Origin: Tubulanus polymorphus
Lineage: Eukaryota; Nemertea; Palaeonemertea; Tubulaniformes; Tubulanidae
Direction: 5' to 3'
Assembly: GCF_964204645.1 (NCBI RefSeq)
Contig: NC_134028.1
Location: 4,872,501 to 4,936,500 of the forward strand
Length of the DNA: 64,000 nucleotides
Shown here: positions 23,701 to 61,685 of the stretch, in pieces
Layout: each line of letters opens with the position of its first letter
Position numbering within the stretch: position 1 is the stretch's first letter
Made by a program: the position numbers and the translations under genes
The notes under the pieces: generated by a model
The model's database searches: none
What the model was told of the DNA's origin: nothing
The model's input: only the letters and a program-made list of their open reading frames with translations

Positions 23701-26700
23701 CCCTCTTACTAATATCTCTTTACCGTGGTGCCATTCATTGAAATCAAAAAGATGCATCAATTCCAACATTACATATTCAATCTAAAAATGAATAAGAATA
23801 ATTAACAACCGATAAACTGATTGTATTCCCAGTCATGAAGATAATGAATACTTTAAAAATTGATGTGAAGTTTGTTCGTCAGTTTCGAGATTTATCTAAA
23901 TCTCATCTTCAGAAAAATAATAAGAGGTTTTACTAACTGTTTCTCTGAAAATGGGATTTAGATAAATCTCGAAACTTATTAGTTAGATAAATCTCGAAAC
24001 TTATTATTAATTTATAAGGGCTTTCTGATGTATGATAACTATTGAAAAGAATGGTCAGTAATGCTGTAGATATAAAGGGCCTGGTAAGAAAAAGTGGTAG
24101 CTTTTTATCTGTCTTTCAAAATAGTAAACCACAGTATTGAGAAAGATGATTACCGGCACAAGTGGACTGAGATCTTCATAATGTTCCAGTTGATCCACAT
24201 AACAATCAACAATCAGTTCATTCAGTTTATTTAAATATCGAACAGCTACAATTTCCTGTTTGAATTGCGTCTGCTTCCAATAATTACAAACCATAAATTC
24301 TTCTCTGAAATGAAGGAGAATACATAATACAATGCAAAAACACGAAAAATATATAAGGGCATTTCGATAAGAACTTACTCTTTGAATAATTTCATGAAGC
24401 AAAAATAATCAAGTAGAATTTCCGCCAACATGTCGGTTTTTCCAGCTCTAAGAAAGAGCCATGGAATTTCAAAAATCCAAACAGGCATGGAATCACTGAA
24501 TGACCTTGCTGGCTGAAAAGTTTATCCAAAACTGACTAACGTAATGGACATGATTACAGTATCAATACCTCAAATTAATCAAACTCACTGTTTTTTTGTA
24601 TTCCGCATACAAATACAAAGCAATTTTACCAGCAATTCTTTGTAACTTTTCTTTACTGGTCAAGTAGCGCTTTTCAATGGCAGTTGTTAACTTTGGAAAA
24701 CCAATGCTGTAATAAAGAAACGAATATGTATTACAATTCAGGCTCAGCCGCTCAGGTCTAAGCTTGAAATCGGCGAGAGTATACCTTAAAAGTCCATCTT
24801 TAAGAACGAGATATTTTTCGATAGCGAAATAAAGTGGGGACCAGAGATGTGACGGCAAATGAAACAATGCGACAAGCTGCATCTCAGAAATGCCTCGACT
24901 CATGATTGCTATCGATGTTAAAACGGTCTCGACCAGATTTGGGAATTCATCCGTGTTGTAATCTTGGTCGAGTTGTTCCAAATATTTCATGAACGCTTCA
25001 TCGATGCTAAAAACGAGAGAATACAAACTGATTAAATCTGACATGTACATTTTCTTCAACTACGTCGATGAAATGAAAAATACCTTTTTGCCTCTAGAAA
25101 ATTTTCAATCTTCTTTGTAATATGGAGATAATATCCTACAGTGCACAATCCATCCACCATGATATTCAGAAACATCGGATTTGAAGTCTGATCAGCTTGC
25201 AATACTAATTTCCTTTGTTCAGTAGAAAATTCTTTACTTCTCATGGTAAGGATGGCCTGAAATTAGTGACTCGATAATATCAGAATTGGTTAAGTTATCC
25301 AATTGAATGTATCAAATTCTAGTGATAATTCATACTAATTCTTTGAGTTCACTTGAAAAATAAATTCTTAACGCCTTACATCACATAATTCAGCCTTCTG
25401 CGCCAGTTCAAGAGGTTGTATATTCAGTGGTTTGTATTTACGGTTCTCGACTAATTCAGAAATTGTGGCTTCATCATCCGAGCGAGTTGAAACCAGAATA
25501 AAAACTCCATCACTACGAACCTTGGGAAGCCAATATAACAACTGAAACAAACACAATCACATTCCCAGAAGATAATTAAATAGACCCTCATTAATCACAG
25601 CACCCTGAGGTTTTGGTAATCAAGAGAAAAACTTTGAAAAACGTTTTGAAAAATTTGCCCATACCAATTGAATCAAAACATTACTGATAACTTACATAGT
25701 TTTTTTTCGATTGTCCATTTTTCTATAAATCAAAAGAAGGCACACGATTACCTTTGACGTTTTTCCTATATCTTCAACTCGGTCGATACCATCGATGATA
25801 ATATATATCGTCTTTCCATTTTCAGCAGCAGTATCGAATAGATTTTGCAGTTCTCTCAGATATTGTTCTATCTGATCGGTTTTACTAACTCTTCCATCTA
25901 AACTAGAATCCTTACCACTGTCATTAACCGCTATTCCTAATCCTTTTCCGATTGTTGATTTCATTCGAAATAGAATGTTCTGTTTATCTGTATTAAAGAA
26001 TAAAGTACAGATTTTCAATTTTCAATTTCCAATCTGAGAATGCATCAACTATGGTGTATGTATGTAATTTTTAAAATCTTTTTGTGATCAATCTTTTTTA
26101 TGGCTTGCCCATTATCACCTTTTTTTACATTTACTGCTATATGTACTTTACCTGTGCTATGCTGAGGAAATCCGACAAAATGATAAGCAATGATTGAATT
26201 GGAAACTGATTGCAGAGAATTCAGCCACATACTGATAGCTGAAGACTTTCCCGATCCTGATTCACCAAGAATCAACAATTTTCTATCGCCTGAAAGATTA
26301 ATGAATCATTATTTAATACATACTCTACCTCATACCCATAAAATAATCATATACGCAACATTTTCACCTGATGAAAAATGCTGTTTAATCTCATTTACAT
26401 AATTCAAATCTCTGACATAAAGTGTGCATCGACTATTTTTGAAAGCTTCGTGTTGTTGCCATTCCTGTTGAGCTGGAGTCAAATCGGGTGGTGCTACTAA
26501 TAGTACTTCATTTAGATATTTCCAAACAGAGTTGAACATGAATTCCACCCCCTATGAACAAATACACTATTATCATTAAAAACTGCTGTAAAATGCAAAC
26601 ATGTATCTAATCATCTAACTTACTTCTTTTGGAGTTTTATAAGCCATATTGATACCAATTGTCTGAAATCAGAAAATTTATGAATATACACGTAATATCA

Positions 26701-28020
26701 AACCCTGCATATTAAGAATGGAAAAGTGGAGTCCGAAAAGTTCCCTTGAGCTAATATTTACTCAACATTTCGACTAAGTCATCTACAGTAAGACTGAAGT
26801 ATGATAGGCTATACCATAGTCAAAATATCGAATAAACTACTAGCTCATGGAAACATTTCTTCTATTTTCAGTGTAGGAAGTATTTGTTAATACCTTTGAT
26901 TCGGAATGTTTTACTCTTTGTTTCAGATCATCCATATATGATTTCGCGTGCTCACTTTCAACCATATAAGCTTTAACTTCCCATTGATCTCCAGCCTCTA
27001 AAGCTTCTTGACGGTTCTTATCATCAAATGACTGCAAGTTAAAATATAATATGACATCAATTGAATATCTTAACCAAGGCACGATGCTGTTGCATTCACT
27101 ATCAGTGCTGAGTGCCAGGGTGCCTACATTTACACGATTTGCTTTCTTCCAGGATACCCTGCTGTTATTTCACCTCAGTATATAAAAAAGTCATAATGTC
27201 CTTATTATCTAAATCATCATTGTATTCAATTACATATTGATGTAAATTATTCAGGAAATAGAAGATAAGATATGATATGAGTGTTAAGCGAGTGCTGCGG
27301 CCTGCAGTTGTGTGCGGGAAACACTTTATCTACCTTGTCTCGAAAACAAATACAAGTAGCCATCGCGCCGGGATTGTTTAAATGACCATGTAGAAATTCG
27401 AGTTCAGTCACGCTGCGGTCACGGTACTTTTCCACCCATCTGAACAACGCGCTGGCAACATCGAAATTCTTCTGAAGGGTTGCATCATTTTCACCGTGCC
27501 AACCATAACGCTACAAAAAAGAATTTTTCATTAAATAATTTCCCGGCCATGAGTCTTGAATTTTGGATGTCGGCTTAGGCTTTACGGAGGTTATAAGGGG
27601 CCGCTAGTTGATGCGTGCCAACAATGTGCTGACAATAATTATGTTGACATTTTGTGATAGCCTAGTCGCGTTAAGTCAATGTTGACATAATCATTGTCGA
27701 CCTTATCGCTTCCATAAAAACCTCACCTGTCCAAAATATCCAATGAAGATATCAGATCGATCACATTCTCGAAGACAGATTTCAATAGTTCTAGCACTAT
27801 CAGCAGATTCTGTAGTGATCCCCCATCGCATATCTACAGGACAGAACTGTATCCCTCTCGATCGGCACAATGCTTGTATCTGCGGAAAATAAACTCGCCG
27901 AAACAGCTCCCTCTCATTTTCCATACCTCTAAACGGAGATGAGAAAAATATTCGACAAACTCGTGGATCTTTGAGACGTTGCGTCCTCCATGCCCCGGGA
28001 TTACCAGAATCGAGCTCCAT
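20752..28020 (-). CDS. DUF4062-NACHT-TPR STAND ATPase (NPHP3/TEP1-like architecture)
   Basis: A 24-exon gene of about 1269 residues, closest in layout to animal proteins named 'TPR repeat-containing protein DDB_G0287407-like'. Exons (5'->3'): 28020-27727, 27510-27334, 27031-26894, 26662-26624, 26551-26368, 26289-26152, 25987-25752, 25541-25380, 25256-25084, 25006-24785, 24706-24589, 24512-24379, 24304-24154, 23781-23686, 23402-23269, 23183-23090, 22985-22800, 22690-22572, 22386-22242, 22164-22053, 21948-21705, 21570-21366, 21152-20937, 20844-20752. Residues about 20-150: DUF4062-type domain (FFSSPFRGMENERE, VDMRWGIT, GYFGQRYGW). Walker A GESGSGKSS near 286-294; Walker B IYIIIDGID near 383-391; sensor-like VSTRSDD; NPMFLN motif; winged-helix region near 510-630. 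TPR-like helices run from about 670 to the end. The start is the first ATG; the frame stays open 9 codons upstream to an AG, so an extra 5' exon is possible. The acceptor of exon 22 is the least certain. STAND proteins act as nucleotide-switched scaffolds; the ligand here is unknown. Confidence 0.9.
23881..24003. repeat. Inverted repeat (hairpin) in STAND-gene intron 13
   Basis: AGTTTCGAGATTTATCTAAA at 23881-23900 pairs with its reverse complement within 23951-23976; the 26-bp arms have one mismatch, with weaker pairing continuing inward (CTTCAGAAA against TTTCTCTGAAA). A third copy of the right arm (GATAAATCTCGAAACTTA) follows at 23985-24003. Non-coding; MITE remnant or simple fold-back. Confidence 0.8.
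27081..27130 (+). mobile_element. SINE fragment related to the 61138 copy
   Basis: GATGCTGTTGCATTCACTATCAGTGCTGAG closely matches GATGCTATTGCATTTACTATCAGTGCTGCTGAG inside the SINE at 61138-61352. A second match (GTGTGCGGG) lies at 27310. It is a truncated, diverged copy in an intron of the STAND gene between exons 3 and 2. Confidence 0.55.
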
Positions 28021-28554
28021 CTTTCCCCAAGCCCTATGATTCTCCAACAGCCAGGCAGCCTCTTAAGTGAACCAACTAATATCAACTACCACAACAATCG
28101 TGGCTAGCCCAGATTTTAAGAACTGAAAAATAAATACACATAGTAAATAGAGCAATTTTTGATTGTGACTTTTGTGTCTGGCTCGTTCATGAAAACTGCT
28201 CCAGTCTCACAAACTGGACTCGAATTTAACAACATTGCTTACCACTCATATCAACTTTCATCTAATAGGAGTATGTGTGTGTGGACAAAGTGTCTTGTTA
28301 GGAAATGTCAATAAAATTAGATTGAACTTGCGTTGCGTGGGTAAAACTTTGACGACGACCTTCAGAATTTGGTCTCTTTTTTTATAGTTTTTTAAAAGTT
28401 TTTTTTAGTTTTTAGTTGTCTTGTCTGGTAGGTACACGACATTATTGACATGTATTGCCCATTTGTATTTGTATCATAAGGCGTTAATAATTATTAATTG
28501 AATTGAATTGTCAAACAAGTGCTGCCCCCTAGTTTCGTGGGTAAGTGAGTAAAA
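28021..28554. promoter_or_regulatory. Divergent promoter region, STAND gene and KAT8
   Basis: 534 bp separate the two divergent start codons, so the 5' UTRs and promoters of both genes must lie here unless the STAND gene has further 5' exons. No clear TATA box. A weak imperfect RFX-like half-site pair (GTTGCGTGGGTAAAAC, 28332-28347) is present, but the second half is poor and it is not claimed as a site. Confidence 0.5.
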
Positions 28555-43302: not shown

Positions 43303-46300
43303 ATGCTTCTGAAGGAATATCGAATATGTATGCCTTTATCGGTGGAAGAGGTAAAAAAGCACATTTTATTGTTGTCACTCAACCCTCAAAAGTTGCAGAA
43401 GACTAAGTAAGAGAGAGAGGATGGAAACTGGAAATAAGTTGGGGATCAAAGTTTTGGTAAAAGAAACAAAGAAAGGGCGACCAAGTCGAAAGACAGTTCT
43501 TCTGGGAGTTCTTGACAATCAACTCACTTTTATTCCCAATTGGCAATAGCCTTGTAACTTTGCGAAATTGACGTTTCTCAAAACTTGAATCATGTCTTAA
43601 AAGGTCTTTCTAATAAAAAGGACCATTAATTTCGAACTTGTTAAGTTAAATCTTTAAGTTGAGGTAAATTGTAAGAATGAAAACTAATTTCAAGCCAACC
43701 AGAACTGATAACTGAAATACAACAGACTCCATAAATTTGATAGTTGAATCAGTGTAATAATAATGCAGTGGTAATTACATTACAGTATCGTATCGGTCAG
43801 TTATACATGATCGCTAAACACAGTAATGAACAGAGCGCTAAAGGTGAAGGGGTCGAGGTCGTTAAGAATGAACCGGTCAATCATGAACAACACGGCAGTG
43901 GTCAATATACAGAAAAACGTATTCATCTATCCAGGTATTTATCATCTGATCACAGCTTTGAATGAATCGCCTCCTATTATAAAACCTCATTAGACGATAT
44001 TATTGTTTTCAGTCGGTTGCCGACTTGGATTCAGGGAATGATTCCTCATGTGTTTTACATCACGGAAAAGGCGTGGAATTTCTACCCTTATACGATCACA
44101 GGTAAACTGCTGTGCTAGAACAATCTTTTTCTATCTGTTTTAATTTTGGTTTTAAAGGATGATTTTGTGAATATTAATTCTTTTCTCTTATGTTTTTCAT
44201 GTGGAATTCAAATTTCTACAGAATATACAGTAAGTATTGTTTGTATTGTTGGTCTTTCTCCCGCCTCTCTCTCCTCTCTCCCTCTCTTCTCACCATCTCA
44301 CCTCCCTCTCCCCTCTCTCGCCTCCCTCTCCTCTCTCACCTCTCCTTTCTCTCCCCTCTCTCCTCTCTTCCCCCTCTTCTCCACCCTCTCCTTTCTCTAT
44401 CCTCTCCCCCACTCTCTCTCTCATTACTCTGGCGGTATTTTGATGTTAATGTCCCTGTGTATAATTTCTATTCACCCGCGACTGTATTTCACCATTCAAT
44501 GAGTTCTATTAGTTCGCAGTCACGAAGCCCATCATATTTTCTGATTAATTCTTTGTTGCTTCGACTGAGAAATCAATGAAAGAGAAACAAAGACAATTTT
44601 AATGAATAATTTCTTCATCACCGATATAATGCGCCAGTTCGAATATAATTTCCGCAGGAGAACATTTTCGGACCATACTTTATTTTCGATATACCGGGTA
44701 ATCAAAAGGCAACTTGAGGTTAGAGTTGTCTACTTATTTTAAAATTCTAGTACTGAGTATTATTATAAGGACCAATCAGGAATTGGAAAGAGTCCAATAT
44801 TCTCAATGATGCCCTTTTTTAGGGTGCATCACTTCATGAATCGGCCTCTGTTGAATCTGAACTCATCACCGTGGATTTGGTTCCAGTTGATCTATTTCCG
44901 GGAGCAGTAGCCGCCCTGGGTGGATCCATATTTCTAACATATGATATTTTGATCGACTTATCGATTTTTCGGTGATGAAAAATCACCCTCTCGATCAATG
45001 CCGCGACTGCCGCTGACGTAAAGGTCTTCTCCGCATCATCATATATGATGGTGTTGTTACCTTGACGTTGTAATTGATGTTGTGCGGATGATAGGTTCGC
45101 TGATATATTACACTGATATCATTGATCTCATGTAATCACCGCAGAAAGTGACAGCGGTGAATCAATTGAAATCTGATCTCGGTTCAGTCATTGTTTTATT
45201 ACACCGAGATCGAATGAAGCTTCTTATAACGATTTCTAGAGGAGTAGGACAGAAAACGGTAAACGCCCAGCTTTGCACTCCTCTCTCAGTGAACCACTAA
45301 CCTCTTGTAGTTACTGAATCGGAATTTTCAGTTTATGTCTGAGTTCGGGCTGTCTTTGATTTCCATACATTTGTTTGTGGGACATTCTTTAAAAACCTTA
45401 ATGTCTGGCTTCATGCTGTCTGACCTTAATACATACGGGAGTTAAAAATGTCATCTTACGGAATAACTCATTGTCCTTTAAGCCAATGACTGGTTCATAT
45501 CCTGCCGGAGTTGTCCTGATATTAAGCGCCCTTTCCGCGGTGGATGTTCAAAGATTTTCAGCTAATGCTCCTTCTCAAGCTGCTGCTATAATTGAATTCT
45601 TTCTTTTCAAGTGCGCGCGCGCTTATTGATAAGAACCACTCGATGATAACGGATTATTCTGTGAAGATTTCCAGCTCAATTTTCATGAAAATCTAGATCC
45701 ATCATGAACGTTAAACTGTCACATGCAATGACTGCCATTATGATTTAAGAGATTATATATTTCCGCGCTGTAAGATATCATCATACTCACGAAATCGGTT
45801 TTCTTTTATTTCAAACCGTAGCCGTATATGGACGGAGCAATGATTGAGGAGTTGATATAGCTATAGTTCAGTGTATTTGTACCAGGTACTGGTTAGTGTG
45901 ATCAGTCTAGAGACAATATTTATACAGAGCAGTTCATTTCTAATTATCCCTGATGAAGAAATCTAATTATATTCATCGTGAATCTTAATCTAGTGTTCAT
46001 TAATCTAATTTTCGTTCAGTGAAATATAAATGATTGTCGCTGATCTACCGGTAGATGTAAGTCCTATATATAGCTGATCAGATTTTTTGCGAATGTTAAT
46101 GGAGGATGGAAAATGTATCTTGTGAGTTTGATTAATAGATTTGCTAGCTGCATTTGAGGTACTTTTTGAGAGGTTGTTTTGGTTTTGTTGTTTCATTTTG
46201 TGAATTGAAATCGGGGCAAAAGCAACAACATAAAAGCAAGTTGCAGGAATAAGAAATTAGACTAGGTCTAATGGAGGTTTGAACAATTGTATTCGTTATG

Positions 46301-49300
46301 ATTAACAAACAAAATGTGCCCCATTCGTGGAAAGTGATTAGTTTTGTGTGGTGTTATTTTCATGTTTTTGTCCGGGTAGTCGAGGCTCGAGTGGCTGCGA
46401 GGAAATTCAATAAAAACCCTCATCTGCGGTTGAATTAATGTTCGGGCGCATTATCACACAACGGACGCATGTAAAGTGTTTCGCATAAATAGTGTTTATA
46501 GCCGGAAAATTGACTTCCAAAAATACCCGCGGGGCGCTCGCAAAATACGTGAGCAAGATGACAGACGGATGAAACAAATTCATCAGCGCTTCATGTCAAA
46601 AATATGAAGATCTATATACAATCGTATTCATGGATTATATGTTTGGAAACATTGGAAATGAGAAATTACTATTAAGCGATTTGAGCCATTGTGCGTTCAA
46701 CCAGTATTCCTTCAGTGTCTTCAGTATAAGGATATGTATGGGAACATTCGAAATGGGAAATAACTCTTTTAAGTAACAGAACTATTCAGTATTCCATCAA
46801 TGACTTCAGTATTCCTGAAGATGAATATTAGGATATACGATGTGCATGTATATTTGGTGACTGAATTGCACATCGTAATTTTATAGGCCGATTATTGTGA
46901 ATATGTCATCTTGTTTGTTCATATTTTCCACTGTCAGTTTATGATGAAATGAAGAATATAAAGGAAAGTCGTTAGGTGCTGTGTATGACACTGTATGCGA
47001 TATATCACCACCTCTTGTTTCATTATAGTTGATTTATACAGTGATTACTGATAACATTTTCCAATAAACTATTATCTATTAATCTACCTTTGACCTTCAT
47101 TTGTCATTCTAGTCTTATTGATAAATTGAAGTCGCTCATTATTCATGTCTTTATTTGATCGTTTAAATCATACAAATTGCTGCTGCCACAAGAGAATAAG
47201 TCCTTGAAACAAAGTCTTGATAATCTTCGTATCAAAATTTTTATTTACATCGGGCACCCTAGGGTTGGCCTGGTCAATAAACATGGTAACCCTGATCTGG
47301 TCACTAAGCATGGTAGGCCTAGGTTTGGTCTGGTTGATAAACATGGACATCCTAGGGTTGGCCTGGTTGTTAATATCAGGTGACCAGCTCTAGACCAATC
47401 AGAACCTAGTAAGCATGGGAACCCGAGGTATGGTCTATTTGCATGTGATCAGCTATAGACATATCAGAATGGTTTTTGGTCAGCCATGATGCGTTTATAT
47501 CAGTATGCAATAAAGATATTTTGCGTCAACTCTTGTATAGAGTTTGAAAATTAGAATGAATGAAGAGAACACTTAATCAGCCTTGAATCTAATACATTGA
47601 ATGACATTTAATTCAACTGTCAACTTATAACTCATAGAACAATTGTCAATTGATAATAAACCCGTAAATATAGAACTTTTGAATTTGCATATTTGATGCT
47701 GTAGTTGATATTTTGTCCACAGTTTTTCTTTTTGTTTTATTCATGAGATTTTAATGATTGAATATTTAATTCCTTGGTACGTTTTTAGAAATAGACACGA
47801 AGTGAACAACAACCTTTTGAATGTAAGAAATTCGCTATCAGTCATTTAAATGTAGAATCTTATAATCATTTCTGGATGATTTTAAAACAGGGTGAAATGA
47901 ATATATCTGATCTGGTGCGGTTTAGAAAATCAATGCCTCCTCAATCAGCACTGCACGGTACTTATTCATATTCAATTATTCTATAATTTCAATTTTGTCA
48001 GCTTAATTAGCTCTTGTTTCAAATTTAAATTTCATGAGAATAGCGTCTAATTTCGAGTCATCATTTGATATCGATATCGAAGATTCAAATTTACTTAGAA
48101 ATTTTCCGAAAGAACCGATATTTTGATCACCTGCCATATTGCAAGACTAAGCCGATAGTACCATCGAGAATACTGAGTACTCTCTCTTCTCTCCCTCCCC
48201 TCTCTCCCTCTCCTCTCTCCCCCTCTTTTCGCCGTGACATGAAATTTACTTTATCCATTTACTAAATTCATTCTGTCGTTGATTCTGTGAATATTTGTTT
48301 GACGTTCAACCTTTTACTACCAACTCTTATGTCGATAGCAGTGTGTGTGTGTGCAAGAGACACAAGTGAAAGCATCAGCAGCAGCAGCAGAAGTGATTAG
48401 TGACGAAACTAGTTCTCAGGTGCATGTATATAATTAGCCAGTATTCAGTTTGTAAAATAAGAAGTGGTCTCTGATTGAATCGATTGATTCCTGCGCTGTT
48501 GCTCGCGACGGTCGTCGTCCTCTCGCCGTCGTCGTTTTCTAAGAACGAAAACGACTTCGTCTTAAAAGCAATTTTCACTTCCGGCTTTATATTCAATCAA
48601 TAGGCGTTAAAATCGCGATGATGGTTTTATTGATTGAGGTTTAGTGGAAACTTTCTTTATCATTTTTGCCAGCAGCACCAGCAGCTGCTGTTGGTGCTGC
48701 CGGTACTGGTGCTGTGATGATATATTCATATTTTATTCTGATCTCTTTTGAAAGCAGTTTGTGGGAAGCTTCGTCGAACTGTTAAGTCACATCTGCTCAG
48801 AGAGGAGCTGAAGATGGGCTTTTGCACCTCTCTTTTTTTGCACCTCTTATTTTTTTGCACCTCTCATTTTTCATGAATGTTTCTCTTCAATTCAACGCTC
48901 AGTTGTTGTGGGCGGAAACTGGTTTTTTTCTGTAAATCCATTAGGAAGAAGTTAAAACCGGTTAATCAGTTGATCAGTCGATGTTCTATCGACCAGAAAC
49001 TGAAAATAGACATCAGTCAATGAATGATGTAAAGCTGAATGAACCGTGTGGGAGGCGGGTATCCATCAGAGCAACTGCGAGCAAATTAAGTATAATGAAA
49101 TATTTCGAAAGTAATGAAATTTCAAAATTAGATTTCATTGTCGGCGATTACTGCAAAATGCTGAATACGATCAACTCAAAGATTTTGTCGACTGAAAGAA
49201 TTAATTCAAGACTGAATTCTTAACATGGAATCTTCAGTGATTTACCGAGAGAGATTTACGCAATGTTTGTACGATGAGTATTCGCGAGTTAATTTCTCAA

Positions 49301-52034
49301 GGGATAACAACTCATAGCCTAATCCAACTACGCCATGGCGCGGTGCCACGTACATTCCCTTCACGGTTCGCTGTTTAATTCATTCAGACCAGAAGGAGGA
49401 ATATCTAGATTATTCAACTGTCGTCGCATGCGCGTAGCTGTATTCCGCTGTAGTTTTAGGCAATTCTTCGAGAAAACAGAATGTTCCATTCCATTACTGA
49501 GAGACAATAACGCTGTAATGATCTATTTATTACCGGCTACTTCTTACTTGAAAGGTCGCATATATTTGCTCTCGTTTCTTCTCCGCGTAGGATCGGCGTT
49601 TACGTTTTTTAGCTGCAGCAGCGAATTCGCTAGCTAGAGGTTGTAGATTGTTGTAAGCCTCGGGAAGACGTCGTTCCGTTCGCGGAGATATTTTCATTCA
49701 AGGAGATTCGTGATAGGAAAACAAATTCTCGTTTTCCAAATTGACGTTTTGCGTTGTTAAAAACGACTTATCCGCCGCACCACGCACCGGAGGTCTGGGT
49801 TTTACTGGTTTGACTGGTTTAACGCTGATGTGTCACGGCGTATCGTCTGAAGCTATTGGTCATGCATTATGAACAGCAATTACGCTCATTTCCTTTGGTA
49901 CGCATTGAGAAAATTACCAGCGGAAGAAGTTCAACATTTAGGGGGAAGGTTAATTTGGTTTGATTTATTGCCCCGTAATTTGTAACGGTCTGCTGTACTC
50001 ATGATGCTGATGGTGCTGGTGGTCTAGGTGGTAGCTCCTAGCAGGACAGTTTCATGAGGAATATCAAGATCTTTTTCAACTTGGTTATAATTGAACTGGC
50101 GTCCTCCCCCAGAAATATGTATTATCAGCTCTTGAGCAATTCCCATTGAAATAACATAGATCAAAATGAATGAAAAAATTCTGCTCCCACATTATATTGT
50201 TTTAGTTGTAAGTCTAACTTTTCAAGTTAATATTATCTTCTTATGAACTAATAATAAATGAAACTAAATCATTTGTGTCTATTAATAACCTGAGGGAACT
50301 GAACTGTGATATATGTTTATAGAGTGAAAAACCAAAAATATCAAACTGTCAGAGCTCTAGAATTTGAGTGGACCACTTTTCAATTTTATTGTCGCCAGAA
50401 ATCTGTTATTTGCGGTGATAAATTCTGTTTAACGGAGCTTTCCGTAATTCTTATGGTTTCATTGATCATTTCACATTATCCGATAATGATCCATCGTGAT
50501 TTCATCTCGAGGGAAAATCGTGATTATTTGAACAGTAGATTGATAGGTGTAAATCCCGTGATACGATCAACGCTCCCCAGACGCTCATTAATTGTGACGA
50601 ATCAAAGTTTTTTCACTCGACATTTAATATCATTAATAGGATTCATAATAAATGACTCTCAGGCTCCATTAGAGAATATTAGTAATAATTTATTTCATTA
50701 TTTCATCAGTTGTATATTCTAAAACCTACACAGTGACTGTACAATAGTCTGATATTGATGATAGGTTTTGAATTACCAGACTGCAATAAAGGCACTCCCT
50801 ATTTTTTTTCTAAATTGTTTAAATTTGTGAATACCGTTAGCTTTATAGGTTCTACATGTAAACTTAAAATAAGCTGTTGAATGATAGGGTTTGAATCCTG
50901 GTGGTTTCTTGGTCGAAGGTTCTTCTCTGGTCCGCCTTTAGTTGGGAAAAAGAATCATTGAAAGTGTCCAATGCATGGCACTCAGTGGATTGAGGGGAAA
51001 AAATTCTTTTCAAAAAGCATGCAAATTTTTTTAAATAAAAGTAGCTTTCGTAATTGAAACCTAAATATAGACTGAAATGCAGCCACTTTTTCTGTTTATG
51101 ATTTTCTCTGAATTCTGAAGTTATTTTTTAGGTTTGTTAATTTTACCACAGCACTAGTTTGAAGGTGCCCGAGGTCGTGTTATGCGGCTCGTTTCATTAG
51201 CGTCAACCCCCGTGAACATTATACCGTTTGTCTTCCCTGAAATATCTCAACAATCGATAGTATTACCCGGCAGGGCTGACGGCCTAACGATACTGATGTG
51301 ATATATCTGAGATGGCCTTGAATTAATGAGTTGATTATTCTGTCTAGGTGTTGACATTACCGGAAATTGTCTTCACTCACTCGACCTACCGGCCCCTCCG
51401 CGATCATCCATCAAGCATTTATTGCCAATAACTGCTTTATCTTACTGTATGAATATTTACAATACTTCAGACGAAGGTCAAGTATTTCTATATAAGGAGT
51501 TACTACTAGTACTACACAGTTTACTAATTAAAGGGGTCACTCTGTATAGTTTGCCGTACCGTAATTGATTTATCTGTTGAAGTCTCCCGGTTTGACTCTC
51601 CAGACAGACGTTACTCTAATGGCTTCACTGAATTCATATAATGACCATGTATAGATTTTCAGACAATTAAACAGGGTGGAGCAGTAGCCGCAGTACAAAA
51701 ACACAGACCTTTACCCTTTAATGTAGTCTGCAGTCTTTATAACCACTAACTACAATATGCCACTTCTATTCACTCTAGTTCATTTTTTGATGATATTTAC
51801 GCAAACATTTCTTCGATTGATCGACGCTTAATCTGCAGATCTTATATCTGAAAGTGATCAAAGTCTCCTGTGATCTTTCAGGAGATTTTCTCGATTAAAA
51901 AAAGTGAACATTTGAGACAGGTTCCAACATTCTGTGCCGATGTGGAGTTCCTTTTTTTACAAAGGATATTTCAGAAATCCCTGTCTCGCAAATCTACCTG
52001 TTCAGTTATTTATAGGATGACATTTAGCGGCAAC

Positions 52035-52065
<31 letters not shown>

Positions 52066-55000
52066 GATATACACTGTATATGGTAAATGATGGTCATTGC
52101 TGATCTGATGTTAATTTGGCCACAGATGAATCTGTAAATGATGCGTTAAATGCTATTTTGATGGGTTAATTCATCTCTTCCGATGATTATTACCTTCATT
52201 ACCTTCATTCCCCGGATTTAACGAAATCTGAGATACAAATATTTTTGCTTTCGTTCGAGATATTTACTTACACTGCGCACATGCGAGGACGACGACGCCT
52301 CAAGCTTTCATTGGCTCATTGACTTCAATACTGTCATTACTCATCCAACTGACTGTCAGGATGTTATGAAAATATTACAAATATGAAAATGATAAATCCT
52401 TGATCCAGTTTCACATCGACTACCGCCCTATCCACAGCTATGACTCTTGTTCCATACATCAACCAATATTGAATCCAACTAATCTTAGAATTAGTTGTAA
52501 CTGAACCTACAGTTAATCAATGATCTATTTTGATTTTGATGGTGCCATTTCCACCGGGGAACATACCGCCCCCCCCCCTTCCCCCCCGAGAGATGGAATG
52601 TTTACACTGGAATCATTCTATTTGACATCGTGAAAACATCATCAGCATTAACTGAACGAATAGAAATTATAACAATCGGTGATTAGCAGGTTTTAACTGA
52701 TGAAGCAGAGGTCGATGTTGATGTGATAAACTGAAGTGATAATTAATACACTGCAGGGGTTCATAGAAATATGAACAGTAGTGGACAGACAGACAGTGGT
52801 GTCCACACCAGCAGCTTGTGGACAGACAGACAGACAGACAGAGAGTGGTATCCAGTGGTATCCACATCAGTACCATGTGGACAGACAGACTGACAGTGGT
52901 ATCCACATCAGTACCATGTGGACAGACAGACAGACAGTGGTGTCCACAACAACACCATTTGGACTGTCAAACAGACACTAACAACCACATCACCACCACG
53001 TGGACGGGCAGATGGGCAGACTGACAGACTGATACATTATCTAATGAACCCTCGGTCCCAAAAGATATTTGCAGTCTGTCAATGATGTCATGATAAAGGT
53101 AAATCTAGACGGGAGTAACATGATTAGCATGTTCGTGCAGCTCGCCTTAAAAACAATGCACACACCGCAATCTCCACACGTCATGGAGGAACTCGGCTGA
53201 AAGCATTGAGATGTATGTTACAGAAAATAAACTCAACCGTGAACCCCACCGATTCACTTATGTCATTAGCCTGTGGTAGAAGGTCTCGTTGTGTTATATC
53301 TAATTCAATGCTTCACAACGATGTAGTTTTAAAGAATTATATTTTTCCGATCTCTTTCGTTTTCGCCGCCAAAACCATCTGTGGTTCCGTGCTGTTTTAG
53401 ATAAGACGCAGATTAGCTTCACTCCCTCTTCCAGCTTCCTCTCACGCATCTCTCTAGGGGAAGATTCTAACTTCAACAAAGTTGCGTTGTCATGAAATCT
53501 ACGATGTGGAAAATTTAGACGAGTCAAAGATGAGTTTTTTTTTTTAGAAAAACATCAAACAGAACCTCTATTGTCTAATTCGGTTGTTGAACTGCAACAA
53601 AAAAACCTGATTCACTGACATTTCAGATTTCAGATAGATTACTTCTATTCAGGGATCTATTTAAAAAGAATGGACAGTTTGTACATAGAAATATTTGTTA
53701 GGGGGTAGCTGTTGTAGATAGTTCAATAAAAATCAGTAATAGCGTCATGGTTTCGGTTGTCAGTGGTTAGCGTTGTTTGATACCGACAATTCCTTCAGAG
53801 GAATATTACATTCGCTTGACAACCGACCATGGAGAACGATCACGTGTATGAAGGTGGTGCACAATTTTTTCATATTTGCTGCTGGTCTGTCGTCTGTCCG
53901 TCAGCCTGTGTTTGTTGTAGATATTGTCATGGTGATATGAGTCTCGAAACAAACAATCGTTTCAGTTTTCTTCTATTATTGTCACATTTCTCACGTGTGC
54001 TTGTTGCCTGTAATTTCTCTCTCCTCTCTCTTTTTCTCTCTCCAGCTCACATCTCCTTTCACATACATTTTTCCCTGACGTTCTATCTTTCCCCTTTCCA
54101 TCATCCTCTCTTTCTCCCATGTCTTTCGCCGCTACTTCCTTCATGCTCCCATCATCAACTAGGGGTCTGTATCTGTATCTATGCTCACTCTCAACTTCTT
54201 CACTCACTTTCTCTCTCTCTCTCATCATGCTCCACCCTTTCACTCTCATCCACATTGTGTTCAGTAATGGTGTGTCTGAGATTGTGATCATTTGGGGCTG
54301 CTACATTACTCCATTACATTCCCGCATGGAAATCAACTTGATAAGATTTCAATCATCTTTTGTGTCAATCTTCTATATACTACATCACATTAGCCTGATT
54401 GTCGACTTGCAGTAGGGTAATTGATTATACAAATAGACTTCTTGTTTGCACTAATGTAGTAATTGTTTCCGGCATAAAATGGCCGATGACTGTCTGTCTG
54501 TTGCTGTGATGAAATCAACGAAAATCTCTCTGTAATAAAAGCCACAGATGTTTTTTGATAGCCACCATTCACAAGGGATTAAATATCAACACGCAGTTCC
54601 AATGCTCATGTGAATCTATTAAAACATTGGAACAGATTTTAGAGCTAAAACTGAACAGTATAGGGTTACGCACCCCCCACTAGTCTGACATCCTGGCCCA
54701 CTAGTTCGACATACCATTGAAATTTATTTCTGAACTGTCTTCAATCGACACTATCCGCCGTCAAATAGCCCTAGAAAATAATTTCTGCAGTAAGACCTGT
54801 CCCAAGGTCTTCTTTATAGCCCACCACCTGATAGGCCTAATAATTAATTGATGACGCCACACGACCTTAGAACAAAGTGAGTCAAGAATTGATGGCCCCA
54901 GAAGCCATGTTTTATCCCGGAATAACCTGAATTTCATAGGACCATGCCCTCCTGTGAACAAATTTTTGAATTGTCTCGTTGTATACTGAATGGATTTCTG

Positions 55001-58000
55001 TCACAATTTAATGGTGGGATGCGTGCATGCTAACGAGGTTTCGAAATTGTTGGGCGTTTCGGTTAAGGAATAGTAACAGTTGTCCGTAGTTGGTTCAAAA
55101 CCAGCGTTGAGTAAAATGGCCGCCACTTCGTCGTTGTACTGCTCCGTATATTGGACACCTGGATCTTCCTCATCATTTTTCGCTCGTTGTGTGCAAATCG
55201 TATAAATACTTCATCATTATTGTCGTTATTACCTCGTGTGATTGGTTCAGTATCAGACTATATTCGTGACCACTCCCGAACACCTCAAACACCCTCAAAC
55301 TAACCGAACACTTCAAACACCTGGTAATTGAGTAAATCATATCGTTCAATTTTCATCGTCGTGATATTGCGAACAGAACGATCAGCGTCGTCTGGTTCTA
55401 AGGTCAATGTCTGTCTGTCTACAAACTCAACATATACTTCAACTGGTTAATAATTCAATTTCTGTGACATGAAGCAAAGCCGTCGTCAGATAGAGATGTT
55501 TAACATCAGAAACAGGAGAGATTTGGAATATACCAATATTCCCTACAGATTTGACGCAACATCAGTAAGAGGTGTCCAGGGGGAAGACACGAGGAGACAT
55601 TCAGTAAGAGGTGTCGAGGAGGAAGAGGTGAGGAGACATTCAGTAAGAGGTGTCCAGGAGGAAGAGGTGAGGAGACATTCAGTAAGAGGTATCCAGGAGG
55701 AAGAGGTGAGGAGACATTCAGTAAGAGGTGTCGAGGAGGAAGAGGTGAGGAGACATTCAGTAAGAGGTGTCCAGGAGGAAGAGGTGAGGAGACATTCAGT
55801 AAGAGGTGTCCAGGAGGAAGACACGAGGAGACATTCAGTAAGAGGTGTCCAGGAGGAAGAGGTGAGGAGACATTCAGTAAGAGGTATCCAGGAGGAAGAG
55901 GTGAGGAGACATTCAGTAAGAGGTGTCCAGGAGGAAGACACGAGTAGACATTCAGTAAGAGGTGTCCAGGAGGAAGAGGTGAGGAGACATTCAGTAAGAG
56001 GTGTCCAGGAGGAAGACACGAGGAGACATTCAGTAAGAGGTGTCGAGGAGGAAGAGGTGAGGAGACATTCAGTAAGAGGTGTCCAGGAGGAAGAGGTGAG
56101 GAGACATTCAGTAAGAGGTATCCAGGAGGAAGAGGTGAGGAGACATTCAGTAAGAGGTGTCGAGGAGGAAGAGGTGAGGAGACATTCAGTAAGAGGTGTC
56201 CAGGAGGAAGAGGTGAGGAGACATTCAGTAAGAGGTGTCCAGGAGGAAGACACGAGGAGACATTCAGTAAGAGGTGTCCAGGAGGAAGAGGTGAGGAGAC
56301 ATTCAGTAAGAGGTATCCAGGAGGAAGAGGTGAGGAGACATTCAGTAAGAGGTGTCCAGGAGGAAGACACGAGTAGACATTCAGTAAGAGGTGTCCAGGA
56401 GGAAGAGGTGAGGAGACATTCAGTAAGAGGTGTCGAGGAGGAAGAGGTGAGGAGACATTCAGTAAGAGGTGTCGAGGAGGAAGAGGTGAGGAGACATTCA
56501 GTAAGAGGTGTCGAGGAGGAAGAGGTGAGGAGACATTCAGTAAGAGGTGTCGAGGAGGAAGAGGTGAGGAGACATTCAGTAAGAGGTGTCCAGGAGGAAG
56601 AGGTGAGGAGACATTCAGTAAGAGGTGTCGAGGAGGAAGAGGTGAGGAGACATTCAATAAGAGGTGTCCAGGAGGAAGAGGTGAGGAGACATTCAGTAAG
56701 AGGTGTCCAGGAGGAAGAGGTGAGGAGACATTCAGTAAGAGGTGTCGAGGAGGAAGAGGTGAGGAGACATTCAGTAAGAGGTGTCCAGGAGGAAGAGGTG
56801 AGGAGACATTCAGTAAGAGGTGTCGAGGAGGAAGAGGTGAGGAGACATTCAGTAAGAGGTGTCCAGGAGGAAGGCACGAGGAGACATTCCGTAAGAGGTG
56901 TCCAGGAGGAAGAGGTGAGGAGACATTCAGTAAGAGGTGTCCAGGAGGAAGAGGTGAGTAGACATTCAGTAAGAGGTGTCCAGGAGGAAGAGGTGAGGAG
57001 ACATTCAGTAAGAGGTGTCGAGGAGGAAGAGGTGAGGAGACATTCAGTAAGAGGTGTCCAGGAGGAAGGCACGAGGAGACATTCCGTAAGAGGTGTCCAG
57101 GAGGAAGAGGTGAGGAGACATTCAGTAAGAGGTGTCCAGGAGGAAGAGGTGAGGAGACATTTAGTAAGAGGTGTCCAGGAGGAAGAGGTGAGGAGACATT
57201 CAGTAAGAGGTGTCCAGGAGGAAGAGGTGAGGAGACATTCAGTAAGAGGTGTCCAGGAGGAAGAGGTGAGGAGACATTCAGTAAGAGGTGTCCAGGAGGA
57301 AGACACGAGGAGACATTCAGTAAGAGGTGTCGAGGAGGAAGAGGTGAGGAGACATTCAGTAAGAGGTGTCGAGGAGGAAGAGGTGAGGAGACATTCAGTA
57401 AGAGGTGTCCAGGAGGAAGACACGAGGAGACATTCAGTAAGAGGTGTCCAGGAGGAAGAGGTGAGGAGACATTCAGTAAGAGGTGTCGAGGAGGAAGAGG
57501 TGAGGAGACATTCAGTAAGAGGTGGCGAGGAGGAAGAGGTGAGGAGACATTCAGTAAGAGGTGTCCAGGAGGAAGGCACGAGGAGACATTCCGTAAGAGG
57601 TGTCCAGGAGGAAGAGGTGAGGAGACATTCAGTAAGAGGTGTCCAGGAGGAAGAGGTGAGGAGACATTCAGTAAGAGGTGTCCAGGAGGAAGAGGTGAGG
57701 AGACATTTAGTAAGAGGTGTCCAGGAGGAAGAGGTGAGGAGACATTCAGTAAGAGGTGTCCAGGAGGAAGAGGTGAGGAGACATTCAGTAAGAGGTATCC
57801 AGGAGGAAGAGGTGAGGAGACATTCAGTAAGAGGTGTCCAGGAGGAAGAGATGAGGAGACATTCAGTAAGAGGTGTCCAGGAGGAAGACACGAAGAGGCA
57901 TTCAGGAGGAGATCTATGTGTCCAGGAAGAGGTACCTGGGAGGAAGTGTCCAGCAGTGCAACCGATTTTCTGCTCATTGAATTATTGATATAAATTGAGA

Positions 58001-61000
58001 TTGAAGATCTAAACACGTACAGTACTGAGAACAGTACTGAGTACAGTACCGAGTACAGTACCGAGTACAGTACCGAGTACAGTACTGAGTACAGTACTGA
58101 GTACAGTACCGAGTACAGTACTGAGTACAGTACCGAGAAGAGTAAGAGGAAATTACAAACCGAATGTCACACATTACTGTTATATTTACTCGATCTCTAC
58201 TCGAGAGAGACAACATGTTATTAGATATTGATAAAGCCATTAAAACGATCTCTGTTTATGACGGGAGAAAAAAACATTAATCGCTGCGGAAATTCATTTG
58301 AGCCCTAACATTCTCTCATGACGTTCGTATTTGACATTTACGTCTGATAAAACTGTGTTTACCGTGTAACAATCCTAACAGGAATTCCCTCTACGAACTT
58401 CACCATTGTTCTACTTCATTAATTTATACGGACTCCTTGTATACGGAGACTGTTTGTTCTAGATATTTTATACTGGATCCCAATAATTGCTTTCTTTCAC
58501 CTCATCAAACGTGTCTCGAAATATAGCAGTAAATCTGAATGACTGATTTATTTGAAGTGATGCTAAAGATGTCGACCGAATGTAGCGCTATTGACTGATT
58601 ATGTTGACCAGCGACTGACTTTCTATCTCTTTCTCAATCGACTTTCAGACTAACCACTGACAAATAAGGCCCTTAATCAACTTATTGACGACGATGACCT
58701 ATCTAACATACCCGATACAAGGATTCTCGAAGGATTCGCAGAATAGAAGTCTCATTATTCGAATTCATTCTAGTGGTTTCTGCCGAACCGGTTGTTCCGG
58801 CCGGGGTATTGGCAATATCATCTTGAATTCAGAATATCAGTACTTCCTCTGTTTCTTACGTCGACTGAATAACATAGGAGACCTCACTCAAAAATGTTTA
58901 GAAATGAACTTATTTTGACTCAAGGTTTGACTCACAGTAGTACTGGGTCGGTCAAGAACACAGTTCGGTAGTTCTCAATTAAATTTTAAAGCTGAGATTA
59001 GTTTGTTTCAATGTTTTAACGCTAGAATTGAAATCTTTTAAGAGAACTAGCTCTAGAATGTGTCTACGAGATGAAGATCAGTTGTTGGCAGCAAATACCG
59101 GTACATATATACAATCAGAAAAATGAATCACGTCTTCTGTGTATGAAAATAGATGATATTTTTATGAGTAGATACCCAGCAATGGAAGGACAGGTGACAA
59201 TGATAAATACGTGATAAGCATAGCCAGCAGCATTCTATCTGATACTGATGGAATTTATAATGGAACGAAGATTACGTATTTGTTTCTCATCACGAGAAAT
59301 AAATACGACATGACAAGTGTATTTACTGAAAATATTCAAATGTCGTATACGGTTACCGCATATCAGTGGAGAGAGAGAGACTGTGTGTGGACTCGTTTGT
59401 GAGGAAGGGCGCGATTTATGCAAACATTTCTTGATGAAGACACGTTTTACGGCAGTAGTTCTTTTACAGTTTCATATAGTCATTAATCTGTGACAAAAAT
59501 GGATGCGTACGACGTCCGGGAAGTGGATCAAGGAGAAAATTATGCCGTAAATGGCAGGAGTTTGAAAGTGAAATTTCACCCTATCGTTCCTGTAACCCTT
59601 AAACCAACACGACTCATCTCATTAAATCTTTAGAACATCCGCGAAACATTCAACACTTTAATCCTCGGAATTAGCTTTAATTTCAAGATCTGGTAAATTG
59701 ATTCTGAAATAAGCTGATGTAAGATGTTCGCTCCTTGCGACTGAGTCTCGAGGTCCCCGGAGCTGGCTCATTTTCTCATCATGTCTTACGTCTGTCGTGC
59801 GTTTGGGATTAATTTTGAATAATGTTCTCATGTACGTTATATTATTTTTTCAGTGCTCATTTATTCCGAGGTTCCATATACATATAGAAACTAGATATGA
59901 AGACAATAATGGCTCATCAGAGAATGTACGTAGCACCTCACTTTAATCATATACAATATCATATTGCTTGACTCTGATGGTAAAAGAAGTATCTATACAT
60001 GTATATGCACCAGTGAGAGCAAGAAAGAGTTAGAGAGGGAGGGAGTGAGGGATGAAAAACTAAGAGCTCTTTTCAATTATTCACCAGCTGTTCAAACTCC
60101 AGAGGTTATGCAACAGTCTTTATCTTAAAATTGGAATGAACTCTTGATAAACGAAAAACTTTAAATAAATGCCAAATTGCCATGCCAGTTTTCAAAGCAT
60201 ACCTGAATCACATTTTACTGTGGATTGTTCTGTTTTTTTTTTCCAGAGACGCAAACATTTCTCCGTACTGTTGATCGTTTAAGTTGTTATGATTATTGCT
60301 CTGTTTCTCTGCAGTGTTTAACATTGACGGAAGAAGATTTAGAACAAAGAGAAGTTTTATCATTAGATATAGCGTACGATGATATACCTCCTAAACATTA
60401 TAAAGAAGAAGAGGTAAAATACATTGAACAACCTGCAGATACAACTCACAATCCCATTCCTCAGTTTCCAGTATTTTAACTGTTAAGTTGAATTTCAACT
60501 AAGATTGTGGATCTGTGTCCTGATTATTTACTGACCATTGAGCCAATATTTTCACTGATTCATTTTCGATGTGTCTTTCATTTTTTTCTTGCAGGATTGC
60601 AAAACTTTCAGGTCAGAAAAAACGGGTCGTGGTCCACTGCCACCGGGATGGAGGGTAAGTGAATAGTTAACCATTTCAGTGCTGACTAATTAATACCCTA
60701 TAGTGCTGGAGATAATTTGAAAATTTTTAAAAATTCCACCCTAGTGTGTTGAATAATGGGAATACCACCATAGTGCGTCTACACCGCGGCGCGGTTAGAT
60801 TGTTATCTATTACCACATGCACCAAGCTTTGAGTATATGTGATATAACTGTTCATGAATCTGATATTTTTCCCAGGATTTTCAGAAGCCGATAATGTGTT
60901 CATATAAAGCAGTGAAAGTTAAATTTGAGGTGTGGGGTTTACAAACAAAAGTAGAAGAATTTACGCATCGAGCAATACGTGATATATTACTGGTTGGTCA

Positions 61001-61685
61001 TAGGCAGGCTTTCGCTTGGATAGATGAGTGGTTTGGTGAGTTTAACTGGCCTCAACCGTGCTCATACTCAGTTCCACAGTTGTGAGAATGATTTAACTCC
61101 CGACAAAGTTAGTTCATATTCAATAACTTTGCCCCTAGCCGCCTCAGTAGCTCATTGGGATAAGGAGTGATGCTATTGCATTTACTATCAGTGCTGCTGA
61201 GTGACAAGCAGGTTCAAGTCTTGCTGGCTGCTTACAGTGTGCGGGCAACGCTTCAAAGGCTGTGGATCCGTCATGAGCCAATAGTATTGCGAAACCAAGA
61301 CCTGAACTACACAAAGCAAGATAAACAAACAAAAATAAAAAACTCAAAGCTGTTGAACTGTGTCCAGAGCATTAAGTATTCAACCCTTTACAATTTGGTC
61401 CCTAATTATTTTGACTCAATTTGAAAACAAACATTTTAAAAGAAAATGTTTATACCAAATGTAACACTTGTTTAAGACCTTTTCTCCTAGCTCAACTATC
61501 AACTGATTGCATTTTCTTTGTTTTTGAACGCAATTTCAGGAATGACGATAGGAGATATACGCGACTATGAAAATCAAATGCACACGGAAACAAACAAAAA
61601 AGTGTTACGACAGAATTCAAATATTAGTTCATCCGGATCACCAGAGAGGCCGCCACCGGATGAGGCAGCATTTGAAGCGCAATAA
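43303..61685 (+). CDS. PITPNC1: Cytoplasmic phosphatidylinositol transfer protein 1 (RdgB-beta)
   Basis: Single-domain class II PITP that moves phosphatidylinositol and phosphatidic acid between membranes. Nine coding exons: 43303-43350, 43786-43934, 44013-44101, 44222-44229, 59854-59925, 60315-60413, 60595-60654, 60876-61035, 61540-61685; 276 residues. The start MLLKEYRICMPLSVEEYRIG matches the family. T58 and K60 in GQYTEKR correspond to the inositol head-group contacts of PITPs. PIMCSYKAVKVKFEVWGLQT (exon 8) and the WIDEW membrane-contact motif follow. The tail is short, like the short human isoform, with no PITPNM-type extension. Exon 4 is an 8-nt microexon encoding the end of the TITEYT turn; without it the frame is lost. 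Intron 4 is 15.6 kb while the others are under 700 bp. Confidence 0.96.
44222..44229 (+). other. PITPNC1: 8-nt coding microexon of PITPNC1
   Basis: AATATACA flanked by TTTCTACAG and GTAAGTATTG, both strong splice sites. Exon 3 ends one base into a codon, so the microexon completes Glu and adds Tyr-Thr, and exon 5 starts in phase at TGC (Cys). The result (TITEYTCSFIPRF) matches the conserved PITPNC1 sequence without a gap, which strongly supports it. Confidence 0.92.
44253..44424 (+). repeat. CT-rich pyrimidine tract downstream of the microexon
   Basis: About 170 nt almost entirely of C and T (CTCTCCCTCTCTTCTCACC-type units), starting 23 nt after the microexon donor. Such CU-rich RNA is the kind of sequence bound by PTB-class splicing repressors. 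Apparent Ser/Pro/Leu-rich open frames here are by-products of the tract. Confidence 0.85.
47255..47370. repeat. Degenerate 33-36-bp tandem repeat
   Basis: Three to four units around AACATGGACATCCTAGGGTT followed by GGCCTGGTTGATA. Units vary by substitution (CTAGGGTTGGCCTGGTCAAT, CCTAGGTTTGGTCTGGTTGA). Non-coding, within PITPNC1 intron 4. Confidence 0.75.
48819..48872. repeat. TTTTGCACCTCT triplet repeat
   Basis: TTTTGCACCTCT followed by a T/A-rich spacer occurs three times at a spacing of about 20 bp. Confidence 0.75.
52039..52066. repeat. (TA)n microsatellite
   Basis: About 13 TA dinucleotides interrupted by a G near the 3' end, in PITPNC1 intron 4. Confidence 0.85.
52565..52590 (+). repeat. 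C-run (G-run on the minus strand)
   Basis: CCGCCCCCCCCCTTCCCCCC: two long C tracts split by TT. On the minus strand these are G tracts able in principle to form intermolecular quadruplexes; on the plus strand an i-motif. Also a likely assembly-error spot. Confidence 0.7.
52781..53029. repeat. 41-bp minisatellite (GTGGACAGACAGAC units)
   Basis: Six copies start with GTGGACAG or close variants at 52781, 52818, 52877, 52918, 52959 and 53000; the last four are spaced exactly 41 bp apart. The unit reads GTGGACAGACAGACNGACAG followed by a GGTATCCACATCAGTACCAT-type half. Unit ends GTGGA and TCCAC are inverted, so each copy can fold into a small hairpin. Confidence 0.9.
53990..54245 (+). repeat. Pyrimidine-rich tract
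   Basis: CT-rich low-complexity sequence (TCTCTCTCCTCTCTCTTTTT and similar) within PITPNC1 intron 4; third such tract in the intron. Open frames over it are compositional. Confidence 0.75.
55562..57901. repeat. 60-copy, 39-bp minisatellite in PITPNC1 intron 4
   Basis: Sixty head-to-tail units, no length variation (60 x 39 = 2340 bp). The unit is TCAGTAAGAGGTGTCCAGGA followed by GGAAGAGGTGAGGAGACAT. Main variants are CCAGG/CGAGG, GTGTC/GTATC and GAGGTG/GACACG/GGCACG. Units 1-11 and 12-22 carry the same variant order, so an 11-unit (429-bp) block was duplicated. Because 39 is divisible by 3 and the unit lacks stops, one plus frame (55469-57988) and two minus frames stay open for about 780-840 codons; the plus frame would give repeats of SVRGVQEEEVRRH. 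Almost all unit differences change the encoded residue, so there is no sign of protein-level constraint. Interpreted as non-coding satellite. Confidence 0.93.
57902..59853. other. PITPNC1 intron 4, last 2 kb
   Basis: Apart from the 12-bp repeat, nothing recognisable. A degenerate string AAGCTGAGATTAGTTTGTTT near 58991 resembles strings in FBF1 introns (about 39208) and near 17905, so it may be a dispersed repeat. Confidence 0.5.
58021..58140. repeat. 12-bp tandem repeat GAGTACAGTACC/T
   Basis: About ten units of GAGTACAGTACY starting just 120 bp after the 39-bp array. Each unit contains the near-palindrome GTACAGTAC. Minus-strand frames over it read as Tyr-Cys-Thr-Arg/Gln repeats, which is compositional. 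Confidence 0.9.
61138..61352 (+). mobile_element. tRNA-derived SINE in PITPNC1 intron 8
   Basis: The head reads GCCGCCTCAGTAGCTCATTG-GGATAAGG (A box TAGCTCATTGGG) and then GGTTCAAGTCT (B box), about 60 nt apart, as in a tRNA-derived Pol III promoter. The 3' end is A-rich (ATAAACAAACAAAAATAAAA). No cloverleaf is formed. A partial copy lies at 27081-27130. Confidence 0.75.

Follow-up and report, generated by a model that had tools for sequence, protein, structure and literature searches.

An 8-nucleotide coding microexon, probably the detached tail of an older exon, in a class IIB PITP gene

A complete gene was rebuilt from the DNA sequence around an 8-nt microexon on the + strand of the 64-kb window (the whole stretch of DNA analyzed here). 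This gene has nine coding exons, extends from 43303 to 61685 and encodes a product of 276 aa. Coding exon 1 (43303 to 43350; MLLKEYRICMPLSVEE) ends in phase 0, exon 2 (43786 to 43934) runs from phase 0 to phase 2, and the 89-nt exon 3 (44013 to 44101), which encodes RLPTW...YPYTIT and ends with an additional G, runs from phase 2 to phase 1. Exon 3 is followed by intron 3 (44102 to 44221; 120 nt) and then by exon 4, the 8-nt microexon (44222 to 44229; AATATACA), which runs from phase 1 to phase 0. Intron 4 (44230 to 59853; 15,624 nt) begins with a GTAAGT donor and leads to exon 5 (59854 to 59925; CSFIPRFHIHIETRYEDNNGSSEN), which starts and ends in phase 0. Exons 6 (60315 to 60413) and 7 (60595 to 60654) follow; exon 8 (60876 to 61035) ends in phase 1, and exon 9 (61540 to 61685) ends with a TAA stop. 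All eight introns, of 435, 78, 120, 15,624, 389, 181, 221 and 504 nt, have GT-AG boundaries. Intron 4 also contains a 39-bp minisatellite (55562 to 57888; 59.7 copies, 94% matches), within which three long ORFs (839, 836 and 782 aa) are found on both strands; these are probably not genes, their length being due to a repeat unit divisible by three. Elsewhere in the window, on the - strand at 20823 to 28047, there are pieces of possibly one gene, with a DUF4062 match (27703 to 28047) and a weak TPR match (20823 to 21170), that resembles nephrocystin-3-type proteins.

The full spliced protein matched the Pfam profile IP_trans (PF02121) with a score of 384.5 bits over profile positions 1 to 245 of 246. 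This was the sole Pfam domain in the 276-aa product, ending at residue 243 and being followed by a short C-terminal tail up to the stop at 61685. Five PITP loci were detected in the genome: three class I-like genes, one IIA-like gene (with RYRC) and the gene described here, which is unlike both. The class I genes are three diverged copies (C10:3431000-3446000, C8:15700000-15707000 and C2:23593000-23600500), compared with two in mammals. The PITPNC1 identity proposed in the initial annotation was supported, the assignment being based on similarity, including that to PITPNC1. Class IIB PITPs are defined by a PITP domain with a short C-terminal extension (PMC8266687); the gene model encodes this domain and only such an extension, and fits a class IIB PITP of the PITPNC1/RdgB-beta type.

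The bases around the microexon read AG (44220 to 44221), AATATACA (44222 to 44229) and GTAAGT (44230 to 44235). Joining of the last G of exon 3 to these 8 nt encodes Glu-Tyr-Thr (EYT), and alignment to the IIA paralogue indicated a gap of exactly three residues from YPYTIT to CSF. A small spliced aligner, blind to the microexon, was run with the IIA and class I paralogue proteins of the same genome as queries. The IIA query selected 44222 to 44229 at each of the intron penalties 14, 10 and 8 and placed EYT opposite RYR of the IIA paralogue without a gap. With the class I query, the microexon was missed, and the aligner gave instead a spurious 25-nt piece (52975 to 52999) combined with a shifted exon 5 acceptor. 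This result was put down to divergence, as identities over a 63-column stretch were 23, 18 and 24 for the class I copies versus 29 for the IIA paralogue in a hand-made alignment whose C2 row was only partly in register.

A strict pattern, consisting of [CT]AG, the EYT codons and GTRAGT, occurred once in the 15.75 kb separating exon 3 from exon 5 and was absent from 400 dinucleotide shuffles. For the loosest form of this pattern (AG-EYT-GT), 0.0175 occurrences were expected between these exons. Across the whole 268-Mb genome, the single occurrence of the strict pattern was the microexon site. Four frame-restoring microexon candidates of 50 nt or less with YAG and GTRAGT sites were detected between exons 3 and 5; EYT is encoded only by 44222 to 44229, and the other three were rejected as none encodes these residues. 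Extension of exon 3 or exon 5 was also rejected as the source of EYT, there being no EYT beside the exon 3 donor or the exon 5 acceptor. The initial annotation had placed an 8-nt exon at this position, bridging an exon 3 that ends in phase 1 and an exon 5 that starts in phase 0; its coordinates, sequence and phases proved exact. No described PITPNC1 microexon was found in the literature searched, a silence that does not show this exon to be undescribed. If 44222 to 44229 is an exon, an RT-PCR product would carry GATCACAGAATATACATGCTCATTT.

Skipping was predicted to break the frame, in agreement with the initial annotation. Joining of exon 3 to exon 5 in silico generated a 108-aa product ending in YPYTITVLIYSEVPYTYRN and a stop, in which the PF02121 match ended at profile position 98. 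The premature termination codon (PTC) is located at 59892 in exon 5. As this position is 350 nt upstream of the last exon junction, NMD is expected under the usual junction rule and the microexon-skipped mRNA is a predicted NMD target. Removal of EYT from the spliced protein lowered the PF02121 score from 384.5 to 371.8 bits, and retention of intron 3 led to an immediate stop (GKLLC and stop). The exon is thus a frame-breaking microexon, being coding, no longer than 27 nt, of a length not divisible by three and associated with a PTC on skipping. The frame of the microexon is open at 44146 to 44502 for ∼90 codons, through a CU-rich tract in intron 4, such that an unspliced or prematurely polyadenylated transcript would gain a long Ser/Pro/Leu-rich tail after EYT.

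The splice signals bore out only part of what had been claimed for them. The intron part of the microexon donor is a perfect GTAAGT, but the acceptor, described as strong, has 53% pyrimidines at −22 to −4 and is the second weakest among the eight acceptors of the gene. Further upstream, at −21 to −50, intron 3 exhibits the highest T (63%) and pyrimidine (77%) contents of the eight introns. The AG exclusion zone of intron 3 is 62 nt long, and a candidate branch A, guessed from the motif TTAAT, lies near −45. An 89-nt AG exclusion zone was detected in intron 4, yet no microexon follows it. Two features of eMIC-type exons, a long AG exclusion zone and a weak 3′ splice site (62 nt; pyrimidine fraction, 0.53), were present, while UGC was absent from the last 100 nt of intron 3, the nearest upstream TGC being at −109. 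There was no UGCAUG in the 1 kb examined (43901 to 44900). Downstream of the microexon, the proposed 15.6-kb intron (15,624 nt) was confirmed, as was the CU-rich tract, although the latter spans 44244 to 44441 and starts ∼14 nt past the exon end. This tract is an imperfect CT-type repeat in which 100-nt windows contain 90% pyrimidine or more. Runs of 35 nt made up solely of pyrimidines or solely of purines gave 199,681 overlapping hits genome-wide, or ∼48 per 64 kb; the 64-kb window contains two such runs, implying 27 hits versus the genome average of ∼48. As runs of this type are very common, the CU tract, while real, is by itself weak evidence for regulation and its regulatory role is putative.

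Comparison of the paralogues suggested how the microexon may have originated. Spliced alignment of the C8:15.7 Mb and C10:3.44 Mb class I genes placed a phase-2 intron at the residue where IIB exon 3 begins and a phase-0 intron at the residue where the microexon ends. In its own spliced alignment, the class I gene at C2:23.6 Mb has a phase-0 intron right after the EYT-aligned residues, and hand reading indicated that its exon also starts in phase 2, the automatic alignment being blurred at that exon. The class I exon is a homologous coding stretch with equal 5′ and 3′ intron positions and phases, but is uninterrupted in all three genes and split in the IIB gene (100 nt at C8 and C10 versus 89 + 8 nt). 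The phase-1 intron, intron 3, sits between CAG and A and is specific to the IIB gene among the paralogues of this genome. The IIA gene has no introns in this stretch, including those common to class I and IIB, and has either lost or never had them. As the class I genes share the flanking introns but are without the 120-nt intron, the microexon would correspond to the terminal 3′ part of an older exon, separated from the rest by a single intron that the IIB gene alone carries. This intron, now 120 nt long, would have split the ancestral exon at a point 8 nt short of its 3′ end. That the class I introns flank the same stretch, with the 120-nt intron absent from these genes, is new here. Searching the whole genome with the 120 nt of intron 3 yielded a match only to itself; a recent mobile intron was considered, but there was no sign of one, the intron being single copy. 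We consider it probable, from the DNA sequence, that the 8-nt exon is genuine, obligatory, most likely constitutively included and derived from an ancestral exon by an intron 8 nt before the 3′ end.

Other explanations were weighed against this reading. A chance match at 44222 to 44229, with EYT being supplied by another microexon or by an alternative donor or acceptor, would be in keeping with the choice by the aligner of other small pieces in intron 4 with the class I query and with evidence confined to sequence. This is scarcely credible given that, among the frame-restoring candidates of up to 50 nt flanked by good sites, none of the others encodes EYT, that neither neighboring splice site has EYT beside it, that the genome contains no second copy of the strict pattern, and that the IIA query picked this site at every penalty. 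A different origin concerns the intron rather than the exon: the phase-1 intron could be ancestral to all PITPs and have been lost separately in class I and IIA, making the microexon old rather than derived. Intron loss is probable in the IIA gene, which is without all introns of the stretch, including those shared by class I and IIB. However, a second independent loss would be required in the ancestor of the three class I copies, precisely keeping both neighboring introns, and we regard an ancestral intron as possible but unlikely. The intron pattern is explained by one gain or by two losses, and the choice of a gain was made by parsimony, with five paralogues and no outgroup. Either origin is compatible with constitutive inclusion.

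The initial annotation had also proposed that inclusion acts as an on/off switch. Under this proposal, the microexon would be included in some cells (e.g., neurons, via eMIC or via relief from PTB repression involving the CU tract) and left out in others, NMD thereby setting PITPNC1 output. An eMIC-bearing Srrm gene is probably present, as indicated by weak collinear SRRM_C matches (C2:27,842,320-27,844,731), and neural microexon control therefore probably exists in this animal. These matches read SPSHLDKRRIT and SARKRPIPYYRPSP and resemble an eMIC domain encoded by two exons. The weak proximal acceptor, the 62-nt AG exclusion zone, the strong upstream donor and the short upstream intron resemble those of fly eMIC exons (PMC8797185), the T-rich stretch beyond −20 and the long downstream intron may be compared with those of human microexons (PMC4317164), and the closeness of the CU tract to the microexon donor is suggestive only. 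The layout includes some features of regulated microexons. Against a switch, the microexon encodes core residues and has a length not divisible by three, there is no UGC near the 3′ splice site and no UGCAUG downstream, the donor is a full GTAAGT whereas in fly eMIC exons the donor is weak and both flanking introns are short (PMC8797185), and CU tracts are abundant in this genome. The switch was hence not supported and is improbable. It is similarly doubtful, and if anything more so, that a frame-breaking microexon made by lineage-specific intron gain now acts as a regulated valve that turns a phosphatidic-acid/PI transfer protein on or off, with the distal acceptor architecture and the CU tract in control.

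The closest known kind is that of constitutive frame-breaking microexons such as that of MPC1, and the structure is not unprecedented. Human frame-breaking microexons of 4 to 7 nt are constitutive, and the 4-nt microexon of MPC1 utilizes branch points at −63/−68 by a distal pyrimidine-rich region, an arrangement thought to relieve crowding between splice sites (PMC9929638). Like the constitutive microexons of MPC1, TNNI1, TMEM237, KSR1 and MUSK (PMC9929638), the microexon described here is coding, shorter than 10 nt and not a multiple of three, with skipping resulting in a frameshift. As in MPC1, pyrimidines are enriched some way upstream of the acceptor, and the branch point, here only a candidate, lies at a distance from it; MPC1 differs in having long introns on both sides, as opposed to a 120-nt upstream intron, and in that inclusion was measured for MPC1 and is inferred here (PMC9929638). 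Conserved plant microexons (PMC8831610) are also tiny, encode conserved codons, are often missed by annotation and are merged into longer exons in relatives without the flanking intron, but they occur in plant genes without homology to this one, and gain versus loss was settled there with many species. The neural microexons dependent on eMIC/SRRM3-4 (PMC8797185) are likewise small, with a short upstream intron, a long AG exclusion zone and a 3′ splice site that is weak close to the exon; the present exon differs in having no UGC close to its acceptor, a strong donor, a long intron downstream and a length that breaks the frame.

Short flanking introns ease microexon splicing by intron definition, and in C. 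elegans, PRP-40 is dispensable for microexons whose flanking introns are very short, consistent with intron definition (PMC8378409). The 120-nt intron 3 may be removed in this manner. A distant branch point and the T/C-rich stretch (∼−45 to −21) would give space for U2/U2AF, while U1 would occupy the GTAAGT donor, 8 nt away. With intron 3 gone, exon 3+4 would act as an ordinary 97-nt exon for removal of the 15.6-kb intron; we infer both this splicing order and the branch point position. Skipped mRNA would then be an error cleared by NMD and not a programmed switch. Comparison with other species was mixed. In human constitutive microexons, the flanking introns are generally short and the sites strong, unlike the weak proximal polypyrimidine tract and long downstream intron observed here, while human alternative microexons are richer in T beyond 20 nt upstream, a trait also of the present one (PMC4317164). 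Furthermore, 68.9% of Drosophila internal coding microexons are alternative (PMC8042270), which counts against constitutive inclusion.

Exons this small routinely escape annotation, and a missed 8-nt exon would leave a PITPNC1 model truncated at ∼100 aa or with part of the fold deleted. The paralogue comparison provides a concrete, testable origin, in which one intron would have landed inside an old exon, 8 nt from its end, and a microexon born of such an intron must then always be recognized by the splicing machinery. If included everywhere, this exon would be a natural test case for the recognition, via a short upstream intron, of an 8-nt exon whose proximal acceptor is weak.
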